This document shows, piece after piece, positions 4,497-14,164 of a DNA stretch of 20,997 bases. The translations under genes were made by a program, and so were the position numbers. The DNA is from a bacterium (GTDB lineage Bacteria; Actinomycetota; Acidimicrobiia; UBA5794; ZC4RG35). The stretch lies in the NCBI GenBank assembly GCA_028819835.1, contig JAPPKR010000092.1, positions 1 to 20,997 of the forward strand, in the 5' to 3' direction. Positions within the stretch are counted from its first letter, which is position 1; every line of letters begins with the position of its first letter. The notes beneath the pieces are model-generated. The model saw only the letters and a list, made by a program, of their open reading frames with translations. It was not told the origin of the DNA and searched no databases.

Positions 4497-5581
4497 CGCA
4501 TTCGCTCTCTCATCAGGTACAGGAAGAAGGGCGCCCCCACCAGGGCGGTGAAGGCACCTACGGGCACGCGGCTGCCGCTCTCGGTCTGGATCTCCCAGAA
4601 GGGAATCCAGTCGAGCGAGAACACCCGCGCCAGGAGGTCGGCGCTCACCAGGATGATGGCGCCCACCAGCGCCGAACAGACCAAGAGCCGCCGGAGGTCG
4701 GACCCCACCAGGGTGCGCGCCAGGTGCGGGGCGATCAGACCCAGGAAGGCGATGCCTCCCACCACCGATATCGATCCGGCGGCCAGCACCACCGCGGTCA
4801 TGAGGATGATCCCGCGGGCCACCTCGGTCCGAAGGCCCAGGCTCACCGAGGTGGCGTCTCCCAGTTGCAGGGCGTTGGCGAGGGGGATGACCATCACCAC
4901 CAGGGGGAGGATCAGCACCGCCACCGGGACCAGGAAGATGAGGTGGTCCCAGGTCCTGGTGCCGAGCGACCCGACCAGCCATCTGACGATCGAGTCGATG
5001 GTGCTGCCCGAGACCAGGACAATGAAGGAGGTGACCGAGGAGACCGCGGCGGCCACGATCACCCCGGTGAGGATCAGCCGGATGGGGTCGGTGCCGGCCC
5101 GGCGGTAGCTCAGCACGTAGACGAGACCGCCGGCGATCAGGCCCCCGGCGATGGCCGCCATCGGCACGAAGGCGTTGAGGTCGTCCATTGCTCCCTCGGT
5201 TCCGTAGCTGATGGCCAGAGCCAGGACCGCTCCCAGGACGGCGCCTTGGGTGACCCCCACGGTGGCGGGAGCGGCGAGGGGATTGCGGAGGACCGACTGG
5301 AGGAACGCACCCGAGCAAGCCAGCATGGCGCCCGCCAGCGCGGCGATCAACACGCGGGGCACCCGCACCTCCCACACCGAGATGCGGTGAAAGACTTCGT
5401 CGGCCTGGTTGATAAGTGCCTTCCAGACCTGATCGGGACCGAAGATGACAGGTCCCAGCATCACGTAGGCGCACATCACCGCCAGGAGCAGCGCTCCCAG
5501 GGTCACCAGGACCCACCGGGCGCGGACCGCCGGGTTCACCGCGGCGTCCCGGCGGCGAGTGCCGAGCGAGGTGGCGGTCAC
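4493..5581 (-). CDS. FecCD-family ABC permease (second of two)
   Basis: A 362-residue multi-pass membrane protein with about ten hydrophobic segments. It carries the FecCD hallmarks: RVPRVLIAALAGAMLACSGAFLQSVLRNPLAAP near residues 73-105, and GGIAFLGLIAPHLARTLVGSD in the C-terminal third, which forms the coupling region contacting the ATPase. It would pair with the product of the preceding gene as a heterodimeric channel for a siderophore-type ligand. The start is GTG, and GTGA overlaps the previous permease stop by 4 nt; the downstream ATPase overlaps by ATGA. These tight junctions support one translation-coupled unit. The N-terminal 20 residues are polar and Arg-rich, as expected for a cytoplasmic lead-in. 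Confidence 0.95.
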   Translation of the reverse strand: MTATSLGTRRRDAAVNPAVRARWVLVTLGALLLAVMCAYVMLGPVIFGPDQVWKALINQADEVFHRISVWEVRVPRVLIAALAGAMLACSGAFLQSVLRNPLAAPATVGVTQGAVLGAVLALAISYGTEGAMDDLNAFVPMAAIAGGLIAGGLVYVLSYRRAGTDPIRLILTGVIVAAAVSSVTSFIVLVSGSTIDSIVRWLVGSLGTRTWDHLIFLVPVAVLILPLVVMVIPLANALQLGDATSVSLGLRTEVARGIILMTAVVLAAGSISVVGGIAFLGLIAPHLARTLVGSDLRRLLVCSALVGAIILVSADLLARVFSLDWIPFWEIQTESGSRVPVGAFTALVGAPFFLYLMRERMR

Positions 5582-6609
5582 GAGAGAGCCCGCCTGCGCA
5601 GGAGCCCGCGCTGCATGAGCACCAGGAGCGCCGGCGCGCCCAGCACCACCGTCCAGAGGCCCACCGCGATCTCGTGGGGATGGAGCGCCAGTCGGGCGGC
5701 CATGTCGGCCGAGAGGACCAGGATCGCCCCCATCACGGCCGAGAGCGGCACCACGATCCGGGCGTCGGAGGTCCTAAGCAGCCTGCGGACGATGTGCGGC
5801 GACACCAGCGCTATGAAGCCGATCGGCCCGGCGATGGCGATCACCGGCGCCACCAGGAGGACCGCTCCTGCGAACAGCACCGCCCTGGTCCGCCGGACGC
5901 CGACGCCGAGACCCTCGGCAACCTCGTCACCCAGCTTCAGAATGTTCAACGGCCGTCCCGCCAGGAGGAATATGGCGAGGAGGGTAACCGTCCAGGGCGC
6001 CACCAGGCGGACCTCCTCCCATTGGACGTCGGAGAGACTCCCCACCAGGAAGCGGTAGATAACCGAGACGCCCCCGAAATTGGGCGCCAGCGTGATCACC
6101 GCGATCACCAGGGCGTTGAGCAGAGCGGTGAAGGCCGCACCCACCAGGAGCATCCGCATGGGGTTGGACTTGAGGCTCACCAGCGACAGGATCACCGTTC
6201 CGGTAGCCAGTCCGGCCAGGAGGGCGGCGATCGGCAGGGCGATTCCCGGGAAGGGGAGGCGGAAGGCGATGATGGTGGCCACTGCCAGGGAGGCGCCGGC
6301 GGAGACGCCGATCAACTCCGGCCCCGCCAGGGGGTTGCGGAGGGTGTCCTGCATCACCGCTCCCGAGGCGCCCAGCATGGCGCCGGCCACCACTGCGCCG
6401 ACCACCCGGGGAAGGCGGAGGTTGCGGACGATGAACTGGCGGTTCCCCTCCGACTCCGAACCGAACAACGCCTCCAGAACCTCCCCGACCGACAGATCGG
6501 GTGTTCCCTGCATGAGCGACACCACGGCCACCAGCGCGCAAAGGGAGGCGATAGCGGCCACCACCCCGGTTGCCCGCATCCATCGGTTGCGGTATAGAGA
6601 GTCTCTCAC
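5578..6609 (-). CDS. FecCD-family ABC permease (first of two)
   Basis: This second FecCD permease shows LRLPRVVGAVVAGAMLGASGAVMQDTLRNPLAGP and GPIGFIALVSPHIVRRLL, the conserved blocks of the family, and about ten membrane segments. The open frame reaches 6756, but the extra 49 codons read through two stable hairpins and overlap the binding-protein gene, and encode a Cys/Arg-rich stretch unlike permeases. I therefore place the start at the GTG at 6609, giving 343 residues, a usual length. An ATG at 6579 is the main alternative (333 residues). Neither has a strong ribosome-binding site, so expression may be lower than that of the binding protein. Its stop overlaps the next permease start by 4 nt. 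Confidence 0.92.
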   Translation of the reverse strand: MRDSLYRNRWMRATGVVAAIASLCALVAVVSLMQGTPDLSVGEVLEALFGSESEGNRQFIVRNLRLPRVVGAVVAGAMLGASGAVMQDTLRNPLAGPELIGVSAGASLAVATIIAFRLPFPGIALPIAALLAGLATGTVILSLVSLKSNPMRMLLVGAAFTALLNALVIAVITLAPNFGGVSVIYRFLVGSLSDVQWEEVRLVAPWTVTLLAIFLLAGRPLNILKLGDEVAEGLGVGVRRTRAVLFAGAVLLVAPVIAIAGPIGFIALVSPHIVRRLLRTSDARIVVPLSAVMGAILVLSADMAARLALHPHEIAVGLWTVVLGAPALLVLMQRGLLRRRALS

Positions 6610-10639: not shown

Positions 10640-10881
10640 CGTGATCTTTGTCCCAAGAGGTGGTGGAGGTGATGGAAAAAAGGAGCCCATCCCCCAGGAG
10701 CGCCCTTTCCCAACTGGTTTGTTCCCCCGGCCCAACAAACCTGTGAGGAAAGGCCCCCCGGGGGGCGGAAGACCACGTAGGGTATTAGGTGTTGGCCCCT
10801 TCGCAAGACGGGTTGGCTTAGTTAATTCCGCGTTGGGTTCCCACGGCTTGGGCCCCACCTCAAGAAAGGATCTGGTCAGAA
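10640..10881. other. Structured, homopolymer-rich non-coding region
   Basis: This stretch sits between the divergent cupin and membrane-protein genes and has no supportable gene. It differs in texture from the rest: long runs such as CCCCCCGGGGGG (10755-10766), AAAAAA and CCCCC. It can form a roughly 50-nt hairpin: 10704-10710 pairs with 10747-10753 (CCTTTCC/GGAAAGG), and 10716-10723 with 10734-10741 (GGTTTGTT/AACAAACC), loop CCCCCGGCCC. It may hold a structured RNA or leader for the rightward gene, or reflect poor consensus in homopolymers. Confidence 0.5.
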
Positions 10882-11538
10882 GTGTCTGACTTTGTCGAAG
10901 GTATATCAAGCGGCCTGGAGGCGGCTTGGCAGGACGTGATCACCTTCCTGCCCAAGCTGCTCGGGACCGTTGTCATCCTGCTCGCCGGCTGGTTGGTAGC
11001 CCGCCTCATCTACCGGGCGGTCGCCCGCCTGCTCCAAGGCATCAGCCTCGACGGGCTCCTGGAGAGAGCCGGGCTCGGCGAACGCATGAAAGACGCAGGT
11101 ATGAGCGCCACGGAGGTGGTGGCCCGGGCGGTTTACTGGATCATGTTGCTGGTGGTCCTGCTACTCGCCGCCCAGACCCTGGAGATCGAGCACCTGAGCG
11201 ATCTGCTTAGCGCCCTCATTTCCTACCTGCCGCTGGTAGTGGTAGCGATCATCGTCGTGATCGTCGCCGCCGCAGTTGGCGCCTTCCTGGCGGAGGTCTC
11301 CACGCCGTGGTCCCAGGAGCACGGCGTCAGCTGGCTACCCGCGGTGGCCCGGTGGATGGTCATAGGCTTCGGAGCTCTAGCCGCGCTGAACACCCTGAAC
11401 ATCGCCGAGGAGATCGTGAACACGCTGTTCATGGGCGTGGTAGGCACGGTCGGAGTCACCCTGGCCATCGCCTTCGGCGTAGGAGGCATACCTGTGGCTC
11501 GAAAGTGGTGGGAGCGCATTCTCCCCGACAAAGACTGA
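10882..11538 (+). CDS. MscS-related 'conserved TM helix' membrane protein
   Basis: A 218-residue protein with about five hydrophobic segments (near 24-44, 80-100, 112-136, 151-171, 178-202). It resembles the small proteins annotated as mechanosensitive-channel-related, with the repeated 'conserved TM helix' module: LPKLLGTVVILLAGWLVARLIYRAVARLL at the N-terminus and VGTVGVTLAIAFGVGGIPVARKWWERIL at the C-terminus, a Gly-rich helix similar to MscS TM3. The cytoplasmic beta and vestibule domains of MscS are absent. Start is GTG with AAAGGA about 11 nt upstream. It is transcribed divergently from the cupin. A role as a stretch-activated or osmotic channel is inferred from family resemblance only. 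Confidence 0.75.
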   Translation: MSDFVEGISSGLEAAWQDVITFLPKLLGTVVILLAGWLVARLIYRAVARLLQGISLDGLLERAGLGERMKDAGMSATEVVARAVYWIMLLVVLLLAAQTLEIEHLSDLLSALISYLPLVVVAIIVVIVAAAVGAFLAEVSTPWSQEHGVSWLPAVARWMVIGFGALAALNTLNIAEEIVNTLFMGVVGTVGVTLAIAFGVGGIPVARKWWERILPDKD

Positions 11539-11708
11539 GAACCTGCCCAACCAGAGGAAGGCTCTTTCAGAAAAACCCAGGACCCCCTGCACCTAAGCCG
11601 GAGGGAGTGTGCAACCTCCCTTACGCTCCCTCACAGGCATCACAGCGGTTGTCGGATAGATCCGTCACTTGCGGTGACCCGACAGGCGTCGTGGACGGGT
11701 GACCGGGG
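11539..11708. other. Intergenic spacer, one weak hairpin
   Basis: No gene is supported. GAGGGAGTG can pair with a later CGCTCCCTC (about 11600-11635) in a 9-bp stem with one wobble pair. There is no T run, so at most it is a weak 3' end of the membrane-protein transcript. Confidence 0.35.
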
Positions 11709-11738
11709 TTGGGCACGTGTCGCCGCCCGGTGCATAAT
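11709..11738 (+). promoter_or_regulatory. Candidate promoter of the nuclease / RNase H pair
   Basis: TTGGGC (11709-11714) and CATAAT (11733-11738) are separated by 18 bp. Transcription would begin near 11745, shortly before the ribosome site at 11751-11759. The hexamers fit sigma-70 consensus moderately. Confidence 0.45.
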
Positions 11739-11766
11739 GAATCTCAATTTAGGAAAGGACTCCGAC

Positions 11767-12867
11767 TTGGCTGTTGAAATGGCGATCTGGAGAATGACCG
11801 ACACCGGGCCGCGTCCCTTGCCGTCGTCGCCGCTCGATTTAGAGCAGAGTCTCGAGGACATGCTGGCTGAGGACCCTGGCATTACCGGAATAGACCTGCT
11901 TGTAGTTGGAAGACAGGTGCGAACCGGGCATGGAGGGTTTATAGATCTCCTGGCCGTAGATTCCGACGGTCGAGTCCATGTCCTCGAACTCAAGCGGGAT
12001 CGGACCCCTCGGGACGTCGTTGCCCAGACGCTCGACTACGGATCCTGGGCGCAGCATTTAGGCATCGAGGACCTTGAGCAGGTCTATCTCGACCAACATG
12101 GTGGCAAAACCAACCTCGGCGAGGCATTCGCTGAGCGTTTCGACAGTCCTCTGCCCGACGTCGTAAACACGGAACAGCAGTTCACGATCATCGCCTCTGA
12201 ACTAGATCCTACGTCTGATCGCATCGTTGAGTACCTGGCTGGGTCATACGGCGTGCCGATCAATGCAGTGTTCTTCCGGCACTTCCGCGACGAAGGTCGC
12301 GATTACTTGGCTCGGACATGGCTACTCGATCCGCAGGAGACAGAAGCTGCGGCCGGGCGACCGTCGCGTCGCAAGAGTCGACCATGGAACGGCCGGGACT
12401 TCTACACCGTCCTTGGCCGAGCCGGTGAGACTCACCGCTGGTTGGTAGCAAGAAAGTATGGATTCCTCAATGCCGGTGGTGGATCGCGGTACTGGAAGCC
12501 GTTCCAGAATCTCGAGCCGGGAAAGCGGGTATTCGCTCTTGTAGCCGGAGCTGGGTATGTAGGAATAGGCCGAGTCATGGGTGAGATGATTCCAGCCCGC
12601 GACGCCATGGTCGAGATCGAAGGAGAATCCCGGTCGCTTCTCGATCAACCGGAGCTAAGCGCGGACTGGTGGCAAAACGCTGCTTCGGACGACTCGGAAC
12701 TAACCGAGATGGTCGTGCCGGTTGAGTGGTGCGGCACACGGTCCATCGAGAAAGCCATCTGGCAGAAAGGACTCTTCGCCTCCCAACACATTGTTTGCAA
12801 GCTACGGGACGAGAACACTATAAAGACGGTCGAGTCGGCGTTCGGGCTTGATGCCGGAGTCGACTGA
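11767..12867 (+). CDS. NucS/RecB-type PD-(D/E)XK nuclease with a C-terminal PUA/EVE-like domain (putative)
   Basis: A 366-residue protein. The N-terminal domain has a textbook PD-(D/E)XK core: Glu30 helix, Asp60 in GGFIDLLAVD, then Glu74 and Lys76 in HVLELKRD, followed by Gln87-x3-Tyr91 (AQTLDY), the QxxxY feature of RecB-like nucleases. This layout resembles the C-terminal domain of NucS, a DNA endonuclease, but the NucS N-terminal DNA-binding domain is missing. The C-terminal half (about 222-345) begins WLVARKYGFLNAGGG and includes VFALVAGAGYVGIGRV, which looks like PUA/EVE-type folds that read modified bases; this second call is tentative. I chose the TTG at 11767 because AGGAAAGGA lies 7 nt upstream; the ATG at 11779 is too far from it. 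The next gene overlaps by 1 nt (TGATG), so the two products probably act together. Confidence 0.78.
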   Translation: MAVEMAIWRMTDTGPRPLPSSPLDLEQSLEDMLAEDPGITGIDLLVVGRQVRTGHGGFIDLLAVDSDGRVHVLELKRDRTPRDVVAQTLDYGSWAQHLGIEDLEQVYLDQHGGKTNLGEAFAERFDSPLPDVVNTEQQFTIIASELDPTSDRIVEYLAGSYGVPINAVFFRHFRDEGRDYLARTWLLDPQETEAAAGRPSRRKSRPWNGRDFYTVLGRAGETHRWLVARKYGFLNAGGGSRYWKPFQNLEPGKRVFALVAGAGYVGIGRVMGEMIPARDAMVEIEGESRSLLDQPELSADWWQNAASDDSELTEMVVPVEWCGTRSIEKAIWQKGLFASQHIVCKLRDENTIKTVESAFGLDAGVD

Positions 12868-13304
12868 TGTCGAGACTGGAGGCAGCCACGGACGGGTCTG
12901 CGGATAAACCCGGACCTGGGCCGGGCGGCTGGGCATGGGTCACCGGCGAGGGAAACTGGGCGTGGGGAAACTGTCCCCGAACGACCAACATCCGCATGGA
13001 GTTGGCTGCTGTCCTGATGCTGCTCAAGTCCCATCCCGACAGGCCGTTGCTGATCCAAGCGGAAAGCCCTGTGACGAACATCTTCACTGTTTGGCTCAAG
13101 AAGTGGCGAGAGAACGGAATGCGAAGAGCCAACGGTCGGAGACCCGAAAACGTCGACCTTATTGAACAGATCGATGCCCTCCTGAAGGTTAGAAACGTTA
13201 AGTGGGAACCGGTCAAAGCCCGCGACGGTCATCTCCTCAACGAATGCGCGGACCGGTTGGCCAGCTTCGCGAGATTGCAAGGAAAACTCGGACATTGGCG
13301 CTGA
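12867..13304 (+). CDS. RNase HI-like protein
   Basis: A 145-residue protein with the RNase H fold pattern: Asp9 in ATDGS, Glu45 in NIRMELAAVL, then IQAESPVTNIFTVWLKKW corresponding to the DSQYV...W segment of E. coli RNase HI, PENVDLIEQIDALL, His122 in DGHLLNE, and Asp129 in NECADRLA. These align with E. coli Asp10, Glu48, Asp70, His124 and Asp134, but the Asp70 position is Glu66 here. RNase H cleaves RNA in RNA-DNA hybrids; activity with this substitution is uncertain. Its ATG overlaps the nuclease stop (TGATG), a strong sign of translational coupling, so it is likely a dedicated partner and not the housekeeping enzyme. Confidence 0.82.
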   Translation: MSRLEAATDGSADKPGPGPGGWAWVTGEGNWAWGNCPRTTNIRMELAAVLMLLKSHPDRPLLIQAESPVTNIFTVWLKKWRENGMRRANGRRPENVDLIEQIDALLKVRNVKWEPVKARDGHLLNECADRLASFARLQGKLGHWR

Positions 13305-13416
13305 CCTAAAGTGCCTCCACCCGATTCGGGGTTTGGCCCTTCCTGACGGCGATGTAGATGTGTGCCTGAGCGGAGTCGCTGGGTGGCCGTGGCCTGGCTA
13401 GCCCGTCTGTGCAGGA

Positions 13417-13437
13417 GAAACGTTGGCGAAACGTTTC
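13417..13437. repeat. Inverted repeat GAAACGTT / AACGTTTC
   Basis: Perfect 8-bp arms (13417-13424 and 13430-13437) flank a 5-nt spacer, 19 nt past the toxin gene stop. It may be a 3' hairpin of the toxin-antitoxin transcript (no T run) or a protein-binding site. The rest of 13305-13455 shows no gene. Confidence 0.55.
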
Positions 13438-13455
13438 GGAAGTGCGGTCTCCGAC

Positions 13456-13803
13456 TCAGATGTCCAGATGAAGGCGGAGAGCCTCGTCCAGTTGGCCCAT
13501 GAGATCCAGCGGCATGTGACCGATCAGGTTGCCGACCCCTTCGACAGCGACCGATCTAACCTGCTCGGCCTGTGCCTTGGAATCGCGGTTGAGTCCCGTC
13601 TCGGAAGCTCCCAACAGGACCTGGAAGGAGTAAACCCGTTCCGTGTTCGACGTGATAGGCACCACGGTGACGACCCCACGTCCAAGCCGTGCCGCAGTCG
13701 TGTTGGCACCATCGTTGCTGACGATCACGGCCGGCCGGATCCGGGCCGCCTCGACCCCGACGACGTTGCCGAGATTCACGACGCGGATTTCTCCACGACG
13801 CAT
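13456..13803 (-). CDS. mazF: MazF-type endoribonuclease toxin
   Basis: A 115-residue MazF/PemK-family protein, which typically cuts mRNA at short sequences to arrest growth. Family blocks are in order: RRGEIRVVNLG at the N-terminus (2-12), RPAVIVSNDGAN (23-34), VVTVVPITSN (44-53), and DSKAQAEQVRSV (74-85), with FQVLL and TGL between. Length is typical. It starts with ATG at 13803, 6 nt after the antitoxin stop, in the usual antitoxin-then-toxin order. It adjoins the nuclease/RNase H pair, running convergently with it. Intact as far as visible. Confidence 0.92.
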   Translation of the reverse strand: MRRGEIRVVNLGNVVGVEAARIRPAVIVSNDGANTTAARLGRGVVTVVPITSNTERVYSFQVLLGASETGLNRDSKAQAEQVRSVAVEGVGNLIGHMPLDLMGQLDEALRLHLDI

Positions 13804-13809
13804 TAACGG

Positions 13810-14022
13810 CTACACCCCATCGGCAACTGTGGCATCCCACTCCTCGCCGTGGCCGTGGTCGGCCCACTCATCAAACGCCGCCGCGTAGTCCGATGACAAC
13901 TCGGACACGCGGAGAAGCCCTACAGCTCGCCGCACCGCGGCCGAACGGGATGCTTGGTGCACACGCGCATAGCTGTCGAGAAACGCGAGATCTTCGCTGG
14001 ACAGACTGATACTGATCTTCAT
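13810..14022 (-). CDS. Ribbon-helix-helix antitoxin of the MazF-type toxin
   Basis: A 70-residue protein whose N-terminus MKISISLSSEDLAFLDSYARVHQASRSAAVRRAV has the strand-helix-helix pattern of CopG-type ribbon-helix-helix DNA-binding proteins. The C-terminal part (EWADHGHGEEWDATVADGV) is acidic with two Trp, like tails that wrap the toxin in MazEF complexes. I chose the ATG at 14022, with AGGA 8 nt upstream; an ATG at 14028 would add two residues. A palindrome lies over the ribosome site, fitting autoregulation by the antitoxin-toxin complex. The toxin gene follows by 6 nt. Confidence 0.87.
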   Translation of the reverse strand: MKISISLSSEDLAFLDSYARVHQASRSAAVRRAVGLLRVSELSSDYAAAFDEWADHGHGEEWDATVADGV

Positions 14023-14030
14023 ACCCATGA

Positions 14031-14047
14031 TCCTACCAATAGTAGGA
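14031..14047. promoter_or_regulatory. Palindromic operator candidate of the toxin-antitoxin genes
   Basis: TCCTAC-caata-GTAGGA is a perfect 6-bp inverted repeat with a 5-nt spacer, ending 3 to 9 nt before the two possible antitoxin starts and covering the AGGA ribosome site. Ribbon-helix-helix antitoxins usually repress their own promoter through such repeats; direct binding is inferred. Confidence 0.6.
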
Positions 14048-14164
14048 ATCTGAGCAAGAAGACTTCCACATAACATTCATCGGACGGGACTAACGGAGAC
14101 CCGCATGCCGTCAAGCCGGCCCTCCCTTATCTGGTTCACTTATTTGCATCTCTCTCCCATTTAA

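Follow-up and report, generated by a model that had tools for sequence, protein, structure and literature searches.

A candidate phage-defence nuclease adjoined by a lineage-specific, possibly non-catalytic RNase HI-like protein in Acidimicrobiia

The stretch of DNA analysed here (the window) comprises 20,997 nucleotides of contig JAPPKR010000092.1, from a bacterium of the Acidimicrobiia. A variable hotspot within it carries a gene for a two-domain nuclease and, overlapping its end, a gene for an RNase HI-like protein (together, the pair), with the following features:

10737..14158, no strand: variable hotspot between a cupin gene and an ABC solute-binding gene, holding an MscS-like gene, the pair and MazEF
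10882-11538: MscS-like membrane protein, 218 aa, PF05552 conserved TM helix; an optional gene of the hotspot
11733..11738, forward strand: CATAAT, possible -10 box of a putative promoter, read from the sequence
11751..11759, forward strand: AGGAAAGGA, Shine-Dalgarno-like, before the TTG start of the nuclease gene
11767..12867 (stop codon included), forward strand: NucS-type PD-(D/E)XK / EVE-like nuclease, 366 aa, PADLOC PDC-S11
11767..12336, forward strand: N-terminal nuclease domain, about residues 1-190, with D60, E74, K76 and Q87xxxY91
12376..12864, forward strand: domain of predicted EVE/YTH/PUA fold, residues 204-366, candidate modified-base reader (AF2 model, fold matches)
12867..13304, forward strand: RNase HI-fold protein, 145 aa, with Asp70 replaced by Glu66 and His124 by Arg119
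13456..14076, reverse strand: MazF/PemK toxin and RHH antitoxin (Pfam), a neighbour independent of the pair

The nuclease and RNase H open reading frames overlap by 1 nt (TGATG), and the two frames, the RNase HI-like identity of the second and the overlap all stand as a sequence-only reading of this DNA had placed them. The GC content of both genes is 0.58-0.59, compared to 0.65 for the window. CATAAT or TATAAT is also found at the corresponding place upstream of the pair in two relatives (G003 and G006). No tRNA, tmRNA or Rfam match was found in the window.

Among relatives, the MscS-like gene, the pair and MazEF are each independently present or absent at the hotspot. The site in G001 has the MscS-like gene and lacks the pair and MazEF, that in G007 has MazEF and lacks the other two, and that in G006 has the pair alone. 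In G003 MazEF follows the cupin gene, and the pair is located ~13 kb away, at a second site, while a contig of G005 begins at the pair and runs through MazEF into the conserved flank. This mixed presence in G001, G003, G006 and G007 indicates that the pair acts as an accessory unit of the hotspot, independent of MazEF. The adjoining toxin-antitoxin locus had initially been taken as a sign of a defence island; MazEF does adjoin the pair, but since the two come and go independently this argument is weak.

The N-terminal domain of the nuclease has a NucS/EndoMS-type PD-(D/E)XK fold, as judged from its predicted structure with fold matches and from Pfam, where NucS_C was the sole match listed in a scan with E up to 1. 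The catalytic core first read from the sequence (Asp60, Glu74, Lys76 and QxxxY) was borne out, with D60, E74, K76 and Q87xxxY91 unchanged in 50 of 50 aligned relatives. Furthermore, the nuclease gene has a dN/dS of 0.12-0.16 in five pairwise comparisons that include the window copy and of 0.12-0.20 overall. The protein shares with NucS/EndoMS the fold and catalytic core of this domain; the resemblance is confined to this nuclease domain, which in the window protein forms the N-terminal part and is followed by an EVE-like domain. The nuclease missed both NucS equivalog cut-offs (34.3 of 216 bits and 15.5 of 252 bits), and G001 encodes a separate, true NucS (321 bits). On these two grounds mismatch repair was rejected as its function.

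For the C-terminal domain, where the sequence had hinted at a PUA/EVE-like fold, the AlphaFold (AF2) model indeed predicts an EVE/YTH/PUA fold, with matches to 1wmm, 2p5d, 6yex and YTHs. Its pLDDT is mostly at least 84 in ten-residue blocks from residue 211 to 360, although the arrangement of the two domains relative to each other is uncertain in the model (pTM 0.55). The Pfam EVE model (PF01878) gave no match to the domain in the scan with E up to 1, and we therefore term it an EVE-like fold, not a member of EVE. Aligned by hhalign with a mixed set, the domain reached Prob 67 over 33 columns, and with each of the two sets alone 11-14; the register spans only those 33 columns, and the base-pocket residues of VcaM4I are W82, Y130 and Q128. 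As predicted folds, the protein has the layout of type IV-like enzymes, a nuclease domain together with a PUA-superfamily reader.

The pair had been described from its sequence as resembling no named system. The nuclease, however, is PDC-S11 of PADLOC over its full length (420.4 bits, E 1.4e-126, residues 3-362 of the translated stretch against positions 2-356 of the 358-position profile), although PDC-S11 is itself only a candidate; the PADLOC models PDLC04916 and PDLC04915 match it at 420 and 241 bits. In PADLOC, PDC-S11 is a single-gene phage-defence candidate, to which the window adds the RNase H, a protein matched by no PADLOC model. PDC-S11 is also broad: it covers the actinobacterial and Klebsiella plasmid relatives of the nuclease that were scanned, and includes a DUF4268 protein too. 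In P. aeruginosa it was found in 10 of 100 strains, of which 90% were phage-resistant, a correlation only (PMC10855318, in part); elsewhere in the literature, as far as the texts were available, it has been counted, and tied by co-occurrence to other systems in S. suis.

The nuclease family was detected in 7 of 396 genomes of the phylum (E up to 1e-20) and on 52 plasmid records, both bacterial and archaeal. One homologue bears the name Candidatus Spongiisocius, and sponges are a habitat of the host group. The family was absent from 50,697 phage records (E up to 1e-5), and two viral contigs carried relatives, at 39-42% identity and in one case beside restriction-modification (RM) genes; a phage origin of the nuclease was rejected on this basis.

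In distant relatives the nuclease gene is repeatedly embedded in type I RM operons. The order hsdM-hsdS-nuclease-hsdR on one strand occurs at 11 of the 58 distant genome loci (L023-L080), namely L043, L052, L053, L059, L064, L065, L066, L070, L072, L073 and L078, compared to 0 of 10 controls, and at all 11 the nuclease starts 3-7 bases after the end of the hsdS open frame. PADLOC confirmed hsdM, hsdS and hsdR at L066. A type I-like methyltransferase lies in the fetched flank of 17 of the 58 distant loci, one of the 22 closest (L011) and none of the 10 controls; the fetched flanks of the remaining 41 distant and 21 close loci contained none, both flanks being whole at 37 of the 58 distant loci. 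These RM counts are lower bounds, because the seed proteins came from three plasmid loci only. Open reading frames (ORFs) were called with a simple script and not a gene finder. As an observation on the operons themselves, members of the nuclease family form a fourth gene, between hsdS and hsdR, of type I RM operons in several actinobacterial families. Fixed-word searches, with most subscription papers out of reach, found no publication that describes a NucS-type gene lying between hsdS and hsdR.

A broader scan of neighbours against PADLOC (E up to 1e-20) gave matches to 115 families for 124 ORFs from 16 loci, many of these families being related models, compared to 5 families for 91 control ORFs around core NucS. 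One type I methyltransferase model was matched by 7 ORFs, specificity models by at most 5, and a restriction-subunit model by 4. The scan took 16 of the 37 loci with full flanks and 124 of 144 ORFs, mainly ORFs at locus ends being dropped, and the control set represents 10 of 14 core-NucS matches. Because the control loci are housekeeping loci, the enrichment holds relative to such loci. PADLOC candidates were reportedly found by guilt-by-embedding in other defence systems (PMC10855318, in part), and the RM embedding therefore confirms, but does not discover, the link of the nuclease to defence.

Similar neighbourhoods were seen on plasmids, where type I RM-like, BREX, N-6 methylase or NACHT genes lie close to the nuclease at five of eight loci. 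Type I RM-like genes adjoin it on NZ_CP127859 and NZ_CP031163, BREX genes and a DUF4268 protein lie near it on NZ_CP135525, an N-6 DNA methylase on NZ_CP127860 and a NACHT protein on NZ_CP113801. On NZ_CP054255 a PDC-S26 nuclease lies near the PDC-S11 nuclease, NC_014298 and NZ_CP064273 have no annotated RM genes near it, and RNase H is annotated at none of the eight loci. The defence link originally suggested for the pair is thus upheld for the nuclease family, through its match to PDC-S11 and through the enrichment of its relatives in type I RM operons, whereas the window itself lacks RM neighbours: no type I-like methyltransferase or hsd gene was found among its Pfam-scanned neighbours. N6-type methyltransferase matches were present in all six genus genomes searched, weakly in G007, and none lay beside the pair.

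At three loci without RNase H, in one clade, a second PDC-S11-like protein is encoded directly upstream of the nuclease (L001 3667-4725, L019 4782-5840, L002 ~4779-5842); the L019 copy scores 57.7 bits at residues 5-214. A tandem second nuclease was considered as a general partner and rejected, as genes closely related to the L019 upstream gene were found only at L001, L002 and L041. Weaker relatives occur at L049, L051 and L047. The neighbour in Klebsiella is from a different family, and relatives of the Halomontanus DUF4268 neighbour occur at L002, L006 and L062.

We compared the nuclease with characterised or predicted systems that combine similar parts. TgvAB of Vibrio cholerae VPI-2 is a modification-dependent restriction system inside a type I RM cluster (PMC11411939, in part) and resembles the nuclease relatives in that hsd genes enclose an additional restriction function; it differs in being GmrSD-related and two-component, whereas the window protein is NucS-type plus EVE-like and its scanned neighbours included no hsd genes. 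BREX plus BrxU provides a precedent for such a pairing (PMC8565348, in part). The EVE-PD(D/E)XK proteins of Bell et al. 2020 (PMC7641849, in part), which are predicted to act in type IV restriction, have the fold pair and the predicted role of the window nuclease; a word search of the main text of that paper returned none of NucS, DUF91 and RNase H. VcaM4I, a modification-dependent endonuclease of EVE-HNH type, differs from the window nuclease in having HNH in place of PD-(D/E)XK, in its reversed domain order and in its ~12% identity. The presence of a reader fold together with a nuclease, and the insertion into type I operons, match the pattern of systems directed against phages that evade type I restriction by modifying their DNA, as far as TgvAB, BrxU and the EVE-PD(D/E)XK proteins are covered by the sources above.

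The association with RNase H is much narrower than that with RM genes. An RNase H gene lies next to the nuclease at 3 of 80 genome loci (L003, L005 and L017, on contigs of G003, G006 and G005, respectively), all in one genus of Acidimicrobiia, and the window is a fourth such locus. At the other 77 loci none was detected beside the nuclease, including 4 of the 80 that end at most 415 bases past the nuclease, where an RNase H would not be visible. The pair had been proposed as a general module, and this does not hold: in the loci compared, RNase H is not a general partner of the nuclease but lineage-specific, and the commonest recurrent partner found elsewhere is the type I RM operon. Within the genus, the nuclease is present in three of the six genomes in the set, each time with an adjoining RNase H. 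G005 also has a broken second nuclease copy (C227), whose contig ends 339 bases further on, so that any partner would lie out of view. All four pair loci have the TGATG overlap.

In a quick tree of 91 rows, built without the partial rows L020, L021, L022, L041, L057, L069 and L074, the four pair nucleases form one clade (SH-aLRT 92). A more careful tree, which kept five of these seven partial rows, broken rows included, and fewer distant rows, required two changes for the pair. Nucleases without RNase H (L001, L004 and L019) are equally similar to the window copy, at 77-78% identity. In metagenomes, 11 of the 59 top nuclease matches have a longest contig of exactly the same size as that of an RNase H match; one such contig, of 1,866 bases, would hold both genes close together if it is a single contig. 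Indirect as this evidence is, these are probable further cases of the pair. The RNase H nearest to the window (96%) is seemingly on a contig with a nuclease 74% identical, and the nuclease nearest to the window (88%) seemingly with an RNase H 67% identical (P0047/P0121, P0002/P0143), so that, judged from equal contig sizes only, allele exchange between pairs is possible.

The nuclease frame is broken in two of the four pair loci, both in draft assemblies, by a frame change in G005 and an internal TGA in G006, and the second codon of the G005 RNase H is TGA. These broken frames suggest that the pair is easily lost, or that the assemblies err. Broken frames also occur in close nuclease copies more generally (L005 2325-3416, L017 33-1122, L002 6001-7098, L109 3906-4695), which reflects either frequent decay or assembly error.

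The RNase H of the window is a clear member of its fold family: it matches PF00075 at 66.2 bits (cut-off 25.8) and E. coli RNase HI at E 2.5e-19, and its predicted structure is confident (pLDDT 91.8), with an intact fold that resembles E. coli RNase HI at a TM of ~0.85. However, two of its five catalytic positions are altered. Asp9, Glu45 and Asp129 are kept, whereas, as the main difference from E. coli RNase HI, the equivalents of Asp70 and His124 are Glu and Arg. In E. coli RNase HI the H124A exchange abolishes much of the activity and Asp70 holds a metal-bound water (PMC8900815, in part). The changes make an active hybrid-removing enzyme doubtful for the window copy, judging from its residues; we accordingly do not claim it as an active RNase HI, and the removal of RNA from hybrids, as first envisaged for it, is not sustained. 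Across the subfamily, counted in 48 of 68 rows (those with 57% identity or more across 60 or more columns; several are incomplete proteins), 28 rows, the window among them, have Glu at the position of Asp70 and 20 have Asp. A residue other than His stands at position 124 in nine Glu70 rows (eight Arg, one Ser) and in one Asp70 row (Pro, in G007). Among the rows with a residue aligned at the respective position, the equivalent of Asp10 is retained in 35 of 35, that of Glu48 in 46 of 46 and that of Asp134 in 46 of 47. Among the four pair copies, three have Glu at position 70, and the G003 copy keeps all five catalytic positions. RNase H genes have a dN/dS of 0.23-0.44, higher than the nuclease; since dS is near saturation in many nuclease pairs, we read the values as purifying selection that is weaker on RNase H.

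Further RNase H matches were found in all six genus genomes searched, and RNase H of the same subfamily occurs apart from the nuclease in G001, G006, G007 and, broken, G005. Solo copies (L102 12019-12459, L103 4035-4469, L104 3991-4455) share a recurrent neighbourhood, with genes that by eye are glyoxalase-like, amidohydrolase-like and aminopeptidase-like. In G006 the pair and a solo copy lie ~8 kb apart.

We favour a reading in which the nuclease is a single-protein, modification-dependent (type IV-like) enzyme and the RNase H an auxiliary, and give it as a whole a probability of about 0.55. The part concerning the nuclease family, modification dependence, stands slightly firmer, and for the part concerning RNase H, a functional partner and not a passenger, we consider the odds even. 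The EVE-like domain would probe DNA for a modified base, probably flipping the base into a pocket, and the NucS-type PD-(D/E)XK domain would cut nearby, so that phages modifying their DNA to evade ordinary restriction would be attacked. In other actinobacteria the nuclease may complement the type I RM system of its own operon. In this genus of Acidimicrobiia it would operate without RM genes alongside, and we infer that, probably in a single event, it acquired an RNase HI-like protein translated together with it. This protein most likely acts by binding, either to RNA-DNA hybrids or to the nuclease, and in copies like that of the window would hydrolyse little or nothing. The binding and regulation by RNase HI of the phage-defence RNase of RnlA-RnlB is a precedent for a partner role of this kind (PMC5308261, in part), although neither RnlA nor RnlB was found among the window neighbours scanned.

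The strongest rival, credible but in our view the less probable account of RNase H, is that it is an expanding, relaxed paralogue that landed once behind the nuclease gene and has since been carried along. Its subfamily members away from the nuclease in G001, G006, G007 and G005, the additional matches in every genus genome searched, its higher dN/dS, its varying catalytic positions and the existence of RNase H-less nucleases just as close to the window copy all fit such a history. Yet a passenger would not readily account for an overlap kept in four of four loci, for the presence of the pair as a unit at the second site in G003, or for the equal-sized metagenome contigs of 11 of the 59 top nuclease matches, and the dN/dS of RNase H is well under 1. 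In the original proposal both proteins were active enzymes, the nuclease cutting modified DNA and the RNase H digesting the RNA of phage R-loops or replication intermediates. The intact RNase H fold, the complete set of catalytic residues in the G003 pair copy and the near-invariance of the Asp10, Glu48 and Asp134 equivalents are compatible with this proposal, but it is unlikely given Glu and Arg at positions 70 and 124 in the window, Glu70 in three of four pair copies and the E. coli data on these two residues cited above.

A role in DNA repair, with the nuclease acting on mismatches or lesions in the manner of EndoMS/NucS and the RNase H removing ribonucleotides, draws on the NucS type of the nuclease domain and on the general role of RNase H in repair. 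We regard it as very improbable: the likeness to NucS ends with the nuclease domain and falls far below the equivalog cut-offs, a true NucS is encoded separately in G001, and a family that is rare (7 of 396 genomes) and partly lodged inside RM operons is unlike a repair gene. Returning to the type IV-like nuclease with an auxiliary RNase H, a more specific and speculative version, to which we give little weight, is that the RNase HI, remodelled by the exchange of Asp70 for Glu together with the loss of one residue and by the exchange of His124 for Arg, has become a sensor of RNA-DNA hybrids or a regulatory subunit and would thereby guide or license the nuclease at R-loops or replication forks of phages; if true, this restriction system would read base modification and hybrid structure together.

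Altogether, the locus is not categorically new: next to a nuclease already known as a defence candidate it holds an RNase H that is lineage-specific and possibly non-catalytic. It links a so far uncharacterised candidate for phage defence with a concrete proposed mechanism, an EVE-like reader coupled to a NucS-type nuclease and in some lineages incorporated into type I restriction operons, and reveals a lineage in which this nuclease instead has as its neighbour an RNase H with catalytic residues in the course of change. Should this RNase H be a partner without catalysis, restriction would have a new way of using RNA-DNA hybrids, for which the regulation of RnlA by RNase HI would be the nearest precedent.
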